Shown here: piece after piece, positions 10,184 through 13,497 of the stretch | How the letters are laid out: each line of letters starts with the position of its first letter | How positions within the stretch are numbered: the stretch's first letter is position 1 | IMG/VR virus record: IMGVR_UViG_3300046660_000183 | Span: 1-24,481 of that record | Strand: one strand, 5' to 3' | From: a virus | DNA: 24,481 bases | Notes under the pieces: model-generated | Told to the model about the DNA's origin: nothing | Database searches by the model: none | What the model saw: only the letters and a program-made list of their open reading frames with translations | Translations under genes and position numbers: made by a program

Positions 10184-11251
10184 ATGCGGATCACGCGATC
10201 AGTGCGCGAGATCGCCCTGGCCTTTCAGGCAGCGCAGGCTCGCCGAACTCGTCTCACCGTGAACGAGGTTCAGCGCCTGTGGTCCCAATTGGACCGTGCA
10301 GATCTGTCGGGATCGTGGGATGCCTCGGTGGGGCCGCGGATTGTCCGCGCTATCACGGCTGGCCAGCTGTCATCGGCGGCCGCTGCGGACGGGTATGTGG
10401 ATGAGGTGGTGGATGCCGAGGGTGCGGATCCGGCTCGGGCGGGCCGGGTTCGCCCCGAGGCGTTTGCTGGGCTGGCGGCTGACGGACGGTCGCTGGACTC
10501 GCTGATGCTGTTGTCGGTTATCACGACCAAGCAGGGCATCGCCGGTGGCCTCTCGACAGACGATGCGCTGATGCGGGGCCTGAGCCAGGCGTTGCGGCTG
10601 TCGACGTCGGAGGTGACGCAGGCGGGCCGGAGCGCGGTCGGCTCCAGCATGGCCGGGAAGCGGACGATCCAGGGCTACGTGCGGGTGGTGCAGCCTCCGG
10701 CCTGCTCCCGCTGCGTGATCCTCGCAGGCACGGAGTACGGCTGGAACAGGGGCTTCCAGCGGCATCCGCGCTGCGACTGCGTACACCTGCCGACGACCCT
10801 GATTGCCCGCAATCAGCACCGCGGCTCGCTGCCATCTGACGACTTTTCGCCGACGACGCGCCCCGGAGCGGGTGGTCGCGGCTTCCTCGATCCGAACGCC
10901 TATTTCAATGGCTTGTCGCGCGCGGAGCAGGATCGCGTGTTCACCGCTGCCGGAGCGCGGGCGATCCGTGAGGGCGGCGACATGTCGCAGATCGTTAACG
11001 CCCGTCGCGGCATGTACACCACGACGACCTACGGCCGCACGTTGCGTGCGACCCGCGAGGGTACGACGACCCGGGGCTTCTTCTACCGGCAGGAGCGGGC
11101 CCGGGACATTGCCCGAGGCCGGGTGCCTGCGGACATCGGCCGCCAGTACCGGCTGACGTCGCCACGTCTGCTGCCCGAGCAGATTTTCAAGCTCGCCGAG
11201 TCCCGCGATGAAGCGATCGCGATGCTCCGGCGTTTCGGCTACCTGAGCTGA
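10184..11251 (+). CDS. MuF-like head morphogenesis protein
   Basis: The product has 355 residues, with ATG 10184 one base after the portal stop. The N-terminal half is helical. The region about 170-205 holds PPACSRCVILAGTEYG and HPRCDCVHLP, so C174, C177, H194, C197, C199 and H201 can form the metal-binding core typical of MuF-family minor head proteins. In this family the protein is carried inside the capsid near the portal, sometimes fused to a toxin or protease. Here the C-terminal part (residues 230-355) has a short conserved phage tail (LDPNAYFNGLSRAEQDRVFTAAGARAIREGG) and no recognised effector or protease motif. Capsid maturation may instead rely on the Prp-like gene downstream. Confidence 0.88.
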   Translation: MRITRSVREIALAFQAAQARRTRLTVNEVQRLWSQLDRADLSGSWDASVGPRIVRAITAGQLSSAAAADGYVDEVVDAEGADPARAGRVRPEAFAGLAADGRSLDSLMLLSVITTKQGIAGGLSTDDALMRGLSQALRLSTSEVTQAGRSAVGSSMAGKRTIQGYVRVVQPPACSRCVILAGTEYGWNRGFQRHPRCDCVHLPTTLIARNQHRGSLPSDDFSPTTRPGAGGRGFLDPNAYFNGLSRAEQDRVFTAAGARAIREGGDMSQIVNARRGMYTTTTYGRTLRATREGTTTRGFFYRQERARDIARGRVPADIGRQYRLTSPRLLPEQIFKLAESRDEAIAMLRRFGYLS

Positions 11252-11318: not shown

Positions 11319-12011
11319 ATGAGCACGACGCGTACCCGCTGGCTGCCCGCTGCCCAGAGCGCGGACTGGTTCCAGCTGACCCGGCATGACGACCCCGAAC
11401 CGGCCGACCCGGAGCCTGCTCCGGACCCGGTGGACGATCCGGCAGATTCTGATCCGGAGCCGGACCCGGAGGGCGCCGACAAGCTCGGCGACGCCGGCAA
11501 GAAGGCCCTGGACAAGATGAAGGCGGATCGAGCCGAGGCCAAGCGCCTGGCTGCCGCCGAGAAGAAGCGGGCCGACGAACTCGCTCGGAAGGTCGCCGAG
11601 TTCGAGGACGCCCAGAAGTCGGAGCTGGAGAAGGCCACCACGAAGGCCGAGCGGCTCGAAGCTGCCGCCGCGAAGGCCACGGCCCGCGCGGTGAAGGCCG
11701 AAGTAAAGGCTGCTGCCGCCGAGTTCGCCGACCCCGAGGACGCTGCCGCGTTCCTCGACCTGTCCTCCTACACCAGCGACGACGGGGAGATCGACACCGA
11801 GGCAATCTCGGCCGACCTCGACGCTCTCCTGGAGCGCAAGCCGCACCTGCGCAGGGCCGCCTCCGCTGAGCCGAAGAAGCCCGCACCCAAGCCCGACCCG
11901 GGACAGGGTGCACGACCCGCTGAGCCGCCGGCCGACTTCCGCACTGCCGATCGTGCAGCGCTGGACGCCGAACTGGCGAAGGTCGCTCCCGGGTTCCGCA
12001 TCCGCTCGTGA
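11319..12011 (+). CDS. Capsid scaffolding protein
   Basis: The product has 230 residues, with ATG 11319 behind CGGGAGC. After a basic start comes DWFQLTRHD (WFQLTRHD at residues 17-24), then a Pro/Asp/Glu-rich stretch (DPEPADPEPAP), a long Lys/Ala/Glu coiled coil (about 50-140), and an acidic SSYTSDDGEIDTEAI region ending in a Pro-rich tail and FRIRS. This is the layout of phage scaffolds (DUF4355-like), which guide capsid assembly and are then removed. It lies directly before the Prp-like protease and capsid genes. The WFxLxRHD element recurs in the capsid protein N-terminus and is a candidate protease site. The stop overlaps the next start (GTGA). Confidence 0.9.
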   Translation: MSTTRTRWLPAAQSADWFQLTRHDDPEPADPEPAPDPVDDPADSDPEPDPEGADKLGDAGKKALDKMKADRAEAKRLAAAEKKRADELARKVAEFEDAQKSELEKATTKAERLEAAAAKATARAVKAEVKAAAAEFADPEDAAAFLDLSSYTSDDGEIDTEAISADLDALLERKPHLRRAASAEPKKPAPKPDPGQGARPAEPPADFRTADRAALDAELAKVAPGFRIRS

Positions 12012-12196
12012 TCCGCATCCGTGCCCGCTTGGGCGACGGGCACACCTCGATCGAGGTGGACGGACACGAGGGGCACGCCGTGGACGGCCGCGTATGTGCG
12101 GCGATCACGGCTATCACTCAAACCGCCCTGCTGGGCCTGGAGCAGTACGCCCTGCAGTACCCGGACCTCGTGTCCGTCGAGATCACACAGGAGTAG
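12008..12196 (+). CDS. Prp-like cysteine protease, very short, between scaffold and capsid
   Basis: The product has 62 residues. GTG 12008 overlaps the scaffold stop, and ATRIR-type upstream extension is impossible because the frame is fixed by the overlap. The sequence IEVDGHEGHAVDGRVCAAIT followed by AITQTALLGLE matches the core of the Prp family (ribosomal-processing cysteine protease, PF04327). Catalytic His would be H20 in GHEGH and Cys C30 in VCAA. Known cellular Prp proteins are about 105-110 residues with the His and Cys 12 apart; here they are 10 apart and the C-terminal half is missing. Prp trims ribosomal L27 in Firmicutes and also processes scaffold and capsid of phage 80-alpha. 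A capsid/scaffold-processing role is therefore inferred. Confidence 0.8.
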   Translation: MIRIRARLGDGHTSIEVDGHEGHAVDGRVCAAITAITQTALLGLEQYALQYPDLVSVEITQE

Positions 12197-12198
12197 AC

Positions 12199-13497
12199 AT
12201 GACCACACTGACGGCTGCCAAGCCGTGGTTCCGGCTCGACCGCCACGATGTGCGGTCGACCGTCCCGGCCGCGATCCGCGCCATGATGCAGAACGGCATC
12301 CTGGACAGGGTCTTCCAGGAGGCGCTGCGTCCGAACTTCATCTTCCCGGCCATCGCTGATGCGATGCCGTGGCAGGGCGGGCTCGGTGACACCAAGACGT
12401 TCACCCGTAAGGGCCTGCTCGCTCCGGCGACCACACCGATCACCGGCTCGGACACGTCGGCGGCGACGTACTCGATCGAGCAGTGGTCTGTGACGATGGA
12501 CCAGTACGGTCAGGCTGTCGACACGAACATGCTGACCAGCAGCATGGCTCTCGCGTCTAAGTTCCTCGCCGACGTGGAGACCCTCGGCATCAACGCGGGG
12601 CAGTCCATCAACCAGGTGGCCCGGAACAAGCTGTACGGCGCCTACATGGGTGGCCGCACCTGGTGCACCACGGGTGGAACCTCGGACACGTCGATCATCG
12701 TGAACTCGGTGGCCGGCTTCCAGTACGTGCTCGTCAACGGCGTCCCCACCGCAGTGTCGGCGTCGAACCCGCTCACCGTCACTATCGCGGGCACCGGGAA
12801 CACGGTGACCGGCGTGAACGCGGGCACGAACACGCTGACGCTCGGCACGGCCCGGGTGGACGTCGCCGGCGACTCGGTGGTGGCAGCCAACGCCCCGGTG
12901 ACCGTGCGGCCGACCGGTTCGACGGCCTACGACCTCGGCACCTCGAACGTTGCGACGTTCGCGCTGTTCCGCAGCTGTGTCACTCGCCTGCGGAAGATGA
13001 ACGTTCCGACGGTGGGCGGCTACTACATCGCCCACATCGACCCCGACACCGAGGCGCAGCTGTTCTCCGACTCGGACTTCAAGCAGGCCCTCCAGGGGCG
13101 TGTGGACAGCCCGATCTACCGGGACCTGTCGATCGGCCGGTTCGGCGGTATCGACTGGGTCCGCAACATCGAGGCCCCCACTGTGCTGGGTGGTTCCGCG
13201 GGCAACGTGACCGTGCACCGCCCGATCGTGCTTGGTGCGGGCGCGCTGGTGGCGGCCCCCTTCGAGGGCATGGGTGACCTGCTGCGCGGCAGCGGCGTCG
13301 AGGATGTCCCCGACATCTCGATGGTCAACGCGGCGCCCGGAGTCGACGTGGCCCGGATCGTCCGGCCGCCGCAGGACCGCCTGCAGCAGAACCTGTCGAC
13401 CTCCTGGTCGTGGGTGGGCGACTACGGCGTCCCGTCGGACTCCACCACCGGTGACGCGGCCCTGTACAAGCGCGCCGTGGTCCTCGAGCACGCCTGA
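12199..13497 (+). CDS. Major capsid protein (HK97-fold)
   Basis: The product has 432 residues, with ATG 12199 and AGGAG 5 nt upstream. It builds the icosahedral shell. The N-terminal arm holds WFRLDRHD (residues 10-17), shared with the scaffold. Then come an ALRPNFIFPAIADAMPWQGG region, TKTFTRKGLLAP (E-loop-like area), YSIEQWSVTMDQYGQAVDTNM, and helix ETLGINAGQSINQVARNKLYGAYM. A Thr/Val/Asn-rich stretch (about 180-240) looks like an inserted beta domain. The later FALFRSCVTRLRKMNVPTVGGYYIAHIDPDTEAQLF is typical of P22/T4-like major capsid proteins in actinophages. Its place after scaffold and protease confirms the call. Confidence 0.93.
   Translation: MTTLTAAKPWFRLDRHDVRSTVPAAIRAMMQNGILDRVFQEALRPNFIFPAIADAMPWQGGLGDTKTFTRKGLLAPATTPITGSDTSAATYSIEQWSVTMDQYGQAVDTNMLTSSMALASKFLADVETLGINAGQSINQVARNKLYGAYMGGRTWCTTGGTSDTSIIVNSVAGFQYVLVNGVPTAVSASNPLTVTIAGTGNTVTGVNAGTNTLTLGTARVDVAGDSVVAANAPVTVRPTGSTAYDLGTSNVATFALFRSCVTRLRKMNVPTVGGYYIAHIDPDTEAQLFSDSDFKQALQGRVDSPIYRDLSIGRFGGIDWVRNIEAPTVLGGSAGNVTVHRPIVLGAGALVAAPFEGMGDLLRGSGVEDVPDISMVNAAPGVDVARIVRPPQDRLQQNLSTSWSWVGDYGVPSDSTTGDAALYKRAVVLEHA

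Follow-up and report, generated by a model that had tools for sequence, protein, structure and literature searches.

The window analysed here is the whole of a 24481-base IMG/VR virus record. On its plus strand lies a head module in which a predicted cysteine protease of the Prp type is encoded between a scaffold protein and a major capsid protein, both of which carry a WFxLxRHD motif near the N-terminus. The relevant features are as follows:

10184..11251, plus strand: VG15-like minor head protein P0004 (PF25310, E 4e-7; phrog_1522), the rival candidate for a processing enzyme
11319..12011, plus strand: scaffold P0001, 230 aa, with an N-terminal extension and the motif (phrog_4708, head scaffolding protein, E 1e-23)
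11367..11390, plus strand: scaffold motif WFQLTRHD (W17–D24), proposed cut after H23; kept in 167/169 relatives
12008..12196, plus strand: predicted Prp-like cysteine protease P0002, 62 aa, GTG start (PF04327, E 9e-6)
12065..12067, plus strand: codon of His20, predicted catalytic His, aligned with His22 of S. aureus Prp (SaPrp); invariant in 58/58
12095..12097, plus strand: codon of Cys30, predicted catalytic Cys, aligned with SaPrp Cys34; invariant in 58/58
12199..13497, plus strand: major capsid protein P0003, 432 aa, HK97-type fold (phrog_1357, E 1e-26)
12226..12249, plus strand: capsid motif WFRLDRHD (W10–D17), proposed cut after H16; kept in 169/169 relatives

Further family matches, of the scaffold to Phage_scaffold (PF06810, E 1e-6) and of the capsid to the N4-gp56 family (E 1e-12), are under the respective cut-offs. 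The P0002 gene ends two bases before the capsid ATG, and at its other end the GTG start codon shares bases with the scaffold TGA stop (GTGA, 12008-12011), which hints at translational coupling of enzyme and substrate.

The first-pass annotation had recognized the motif in both head proteins, and the two copies indeed lie in the respective ORFs at the positions it gave, with 6/8 residues identical. Its remark that the codons differ at the third base holds for four of the six shared residues (CTG/CTC, CGG/CGC, CAT/CAC and GAC/GAT), whereas TGG and TTC are the same in both genes. A six-frame translation of the window contains WFxLxRH nowhere else. When the first 40 residues of each protein were shuffled, a 6/8 match arose in 12/5000 shuffles, and for the full-length scaffold and capsid pair a match of at least 6/8 anywhere arose in 42/300. 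The match within this single genome is modestly better than chance and suggestive, which is why the weight of the argument is placed on comparative data.

The motif in Prp-bearing relatives and its absence from Prp-less ones

Capsid and Prp-like protein served as queries for relatives, which come from IMG/VR, actinobacterial genomes and Streptomyces phage Kromp. The comparative set consists of 169 loci in which both N-termini are visible, with some contigs counted twice, and corresponds to 100 distinct scaffold-capsid pairs. The pattern [FY]xLxR[HF] is present in every capsid and in 167 of the 169 scaffolds, both exceptions being a single contig that begins inside the scaffold gene. Residues F, L, R and H, which occupy P6, P4, P2 and P1 relative to the predicted cut, show entropies of 0-0.4 bits in both proteins, while most upstream residues reach approximately 2-3.5 bits in the scaffold and 1.5-3.4 bits in the capsid. 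P1 is His in 172/180 sequences and Phe in 8/180, and P1' is mostly Asp. Natural replacement of His by Phe at P1 affects both proteins at locus L078 (FLLNRF↓D and FRLDRF↓D, the arrow marking the predicted bond) and the scaffold only at L068 and L069. Upstream of the motif, scaffold leaders belong to unrelated types (WLPAAQSxxW, VPATGxxW and short ones); since these different leaders keep the same motif, the motif is the constrained element. Within a phage, positional co-variation between scaffold and capsid is confined to P7 and, weakly, P1', and kinship can account for both.

Several minor observations concern the distribution of the motif. At least two of the unrelated scaffold leader types, WLPAAQSxxW and VPATGxxW, precede an unchanged motif among loci L002-L153, which suggests that leaders may have been swapped between phages. 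The first 50 kb of Kromp contain the motif in no genes but those for scaffold and capsid, apart from one minus-strand match, FFLGRFA. A scan of six host genomes for the nucleotide pattern encoding the motif found it exclusively in scaffold and capsid genes of prophages. At one locus (L080:3627-4001, which shares its contig with L293), a frameshift seems to split the Prp-like gene, leaving its N-terminal strands and its His/Cys part in different frames, beside two intact substrate motifs; either a sequencing error or recent decay may be responsible.

Homologous capsids encoded without Prp serve as a natural control. The expectation that the motif would co-vary with the Prp-like gene is borne out: each of the 169 motif-bearing loci encodes Prp, and the Prp-less homologues are without the motif. 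Loci that had kept the motif and lost the protease were looked for among the related loci, and none was found. The capsid of Komagataeibacter phage phiKX1 is homologous (39% identity in alignment), and its whole record contains neither Prp nor the motif; the same is true of two further sets of 80 loci from the same capsid clade (161 loci in all). Prp-less capsids start with M(G/A/S)I(Q/N/E)NFP or a similar sequence, and when they are aligned by a conserved proline, their Met1 takes the position of D17 in the window capsid. This proline lies at a distance of 7 from Met in 145/173 Prp-less capsids and of 7 from the predicted P1' in 109/169 motif-bearing capsids; many of the other values reflect the choice of Met or Pro made by the simple pattern. 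The nearest Prp-less capsids (L296, MSINAFP; L301, MSVNAFP; L299, MGFREVLP) likewise start within one residue of D17, and no Prp was found in their records, two of which are short fragments.

The hundreds of loci do not count as independent cases, because the presence or absence of Prp goes back to one or two evolutionary events. Mapping Prp presence onto a maximum-likelihood tree of the capsids requires two changes of state, one being forced by well-supported branches. The co-occurrence of motif and Prp rests on these one or two events, and the VG15-like P0004 co-varies with the motif equally well, its gene being present at 159/186 motif-clade loci and missing from every Prp-less locus. Processing at the motif by P0004 in place of the Prp-like protein is nevertheless improbable. 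This minor head protein matches phrog_1522, which is labelled head maturation protease, and its counterpart in Kromp, gene 4, is named capsid maturation protease; yet it has no match to any protease family or solved structure, Pfam groups it with VG15, and Firmicute phages that carry Prp possess the same kind of shared motif with no P0004 homologue.

Prp matches in actinobacterial genomes amount to 2/395 at class level, 5/347 at order level and 6/393 at genus level. Every one of them lies within the present phage module, and both motifs are found wherever the contig shows both N-termini. No independent actinobacterial Prp lineage associated with another capsid family was found among these 395, 347 and 393 genomes. 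Actinobacterial hosts have a short form of ribosomal protein L27. Because these hosts are without a Prp of their own, the phage would have to bring the enzyme.

A predicted, reduced Prp-type enzyme

The gene between scaffold and capsid had been described as Prp-like by the first-pass annotation, and family searches agree. P0002 matches Pfam Peptidase_Prp (PF04327, MEROPS C108) at 26.3 bits against a cut-off of 27, and all 58 of its 58 non-redundant relatives match the same family at E <=0.01, several of them above the cut-off (27.6-36 bits). Within the P0002 family, G19, H20 and C30 are present in 58/58 sequences and G27 in 56/58, while residue 21 is always acidic (Glu in 54 and Asp in 4 of the 58). 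Gly19-His20 and Cys30 align with G21-H22 and C34 of SaPrp, whose hinge glycines are G21 and G29; the SaPrp sequence used for this alignment is 100% identical to an S. aureus record. When compared with the PDB, the family profile matches S. mutans SMU.848 (2G0I, E 0.0016) and gives a weak match to SaPrp (4PEO/7KLD, E 0.03), with His and Cys aligned in both cases.

P0002 thus has the Gly-His ... Gly ... Cys active-site layout of S. aureus Prp (PDB 4PEO, 7KLD) in a much smaller protein. SaPrp comprises 106 aa, with a central strand pair, Asp31 and a His-Cys spacing of 12, whereas P0002 lacks both the strand pair and the Asp and has a spacing of 10. Relative to SaPrp, the middle ~40 residues are missing, including the second strand pair, and the active-site loop bears a two-residue deletion in which Asp31 is gone, with no Asp there before the Cys. 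The structural model of P0002 consists of two strands and one long helix, compared with the strand order bb-a-bb-a-b and the length near 100 aa of Prp; it has no Foldseek match of any kind in the PDB, but with a pTM of 0.59 and four of the five models poor, this result says little about the fold.

In SaPrp, mutation of Asp31, a residue with a structural role, abolishes activity; the P3 Gln of the substrate touches Gly29 and Asp31, the P4 and P6 Leu lie at the dimer interface, the P1 Phe forms a stack with His22, and only a small residue is tolerated at P1' (PMC9405229). That P0002 has neither Asp31 nor the middle ~40 residues counts against its proposed role as the processing enzyme. The actinophage site likewise has hydrophobic residues at P6 and P4 and a ring-bearing residue at P1 (His, sometimes Phe), and the P3 Gln of the canonical LNLQxF↓A motif is absent from it, so that P3 Gln and the enzyme Asp31 are both gone. 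At P1', the Asp is bulkier than the Ala usually found there. The P2 Arg may pair with the acidic residue 21 of the enzyme. A tentative proposal, to which we give slightly less than an even chance, is that the 62-residue Prp, without central strand pair or Asp31, is an active protease cutting after His in F-x-L-x-R-H↓D, that Asp31 was lost alongside its partner P3 Gln, and that the invariant P2 Arg contacts residue 21 in the manner described. If this is true, a protease and its two substrates were re-coded together in actinophages.

Comparison with known Prp systems and the proposed processing

Prp cleavage of phage capsid and scaffold proteins has been studied in Staphylococcus phage 80alpha. 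There, both proteins are cleaved by the host Prp at an F↓A bond, and assembly depends on the N-terminal tag of the scaffold but not on cleavage of that tag (PMC5744158). The phage in the window resembles 80alpha in having a separate scaffold and an N-terminal Prp motif common to scaffold and capsid in the same register, namely a hydrophobic P6, a P4 Leu and a ring-bearing P1, followed by A or D. The N-terminal pieces are 13-14 residues long in 80alpha and predicted to be 16 and 23 here. The two systems differ in that 80alpha relies on a host enzyme with ribosomal protein L27 as a further substrate, whereas here the enzyme is phage-encoded in hosts without Prp; in addition, P1 is His and not Phe, the P3 Gln is lost, and the P7 Lys is replaced by Trp.

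Phage-borne Prp in a head module is also found in Latilactobacillus phage TMW 1.1447 P1 and related Firmicute phages (L269, L388-L408), and this group shares an N-terminal motif between scaffold and major capsid protein. Across 22 Firmicute phage loci with a full-length Prp of their own, (L/M/F)xLQxF(A/G) is present at the N-terminus of 21/21 visible scaffolds and 20/20 visible capsids. Unlike the actinophage gene, Prp in these phages is full-length (~104 aa), adjoins or overlaps the end of the portal gene, and accompanies the canonical NLQxF↓A. Firmicute hosts generally carry Prp of their own. The phage copies (L388-L408, L269) are annotated as hypothetical, peptidase or ribosomal protein. 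A closer counterpart of the window is the direct relative Streptomyces phage Kromp (MH744420), whose genes 5-7 encode scaffold, a 62-aa 'protease' and capsid, the motif copies being WFQLTRHD and WFRLDRHD; these genes are annotated by name alone, and no paper on Kromp processing was found in the literature collection searched.

When the Firmicute and actinophage logos are compared, one register of 18 scores positive (2.21, the next being -2.81), a score reached by 475/20000 column permutations. The reading of the motif as a probable common processing site with a new sequence is supported in its first part, the motif being common to both proteins and tracking Prp, and has to be amended in its second: the sequence shows a relation to the known site, since a single register aligns it with the Firmicute motif and the Phe variants of L078 bridge the two. 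Because this single register aligns NLQxF↓A with the actinophage motif, the bond cut would likely be H↓D, that is, H16↓D17 in the capsid and H23↓D24 in the scaffold.

Taken with the comparative data, it is highly probable that scaffold and capsid are processed at their shared motif by a minimal Prp-type cysteine protease of the phage itself, whose gene lies between those of its two substrates. We infer the occurrence of cleavage, the role of Prp as the cutter, the exact bond and the contacts. In the proposed mechanism, the N-terminal tags would be flexible, and the protease would recognize P6 Phe, P4 Leu, P2 Arg and a P1 that is His (or Phe). The cut would most likely fall between H and D (or between H and A), so that the capsid would lose 16 residues and the scaffold 23; as in 80alpha, the capsid would be made with the tag and lack it in its mature form. 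In the AlphaFold model of the capsid (pTM 0.77), residues 1-16 are the sole segment with pLDDT <50, ending at the proposed cut, and the remainder matches solved HK97-type phage capsids in the PDB with probability 1.00; the low pLDDT shows predicted flexibility of this segment and is no proof of cleavage.

Since the 80alpha scaffold tag is required for assembly and its cleavage is not, the very strong conservation of the motif could instead reflect an assembly role, with the motif acting as an uncut signal common to scaffold and capsid that binds, for example, P0004, the portal or the Prp-like protein. We consider this as unlikely as processing by P0004: the segment is absent from Prp-less relatives, whose Met1 coincides with the predicted new N-terminus, the Prp-like family keeps an invariant catalytic dyad (predicted His/Cys), and the closest analogues are cut by Prp. 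Least probable is coincidence, or an N-terminal segment of shared ancestry and no function, for although six identities out of eight in a single genome are weak evidence and the loci are mutually related, the motif is constant in two unrelated proteins while flanks and leader types change.

Cleavage by the phage Prp-type enzyme would mean that a block of three genes unites a minimal protease with both of its substrates, in hosts without Prp. Head processing by Prp is known from Staphylococcus, and the actinophages probably represent a version in which the enzyme has shrunk and the recognition sequence has changed. Relatives without enzyme, motif and tag together provide a natural comparison for the role of head-protein trimming, and the block offers a compact enzyme-substrate set for the study of how protease specificity gets rewritten. 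Furthermore, two tandem copies of the motif, WFRLDRHDGLRTLIPSPAAARPWFDLGRHDVRST, are present in the capsid protein of a prophage of Streptomyces scabiei and in that of a relative (L235:4210-4310; also L102, L105 and L255), as if a putative cleavage site had been duplicated.
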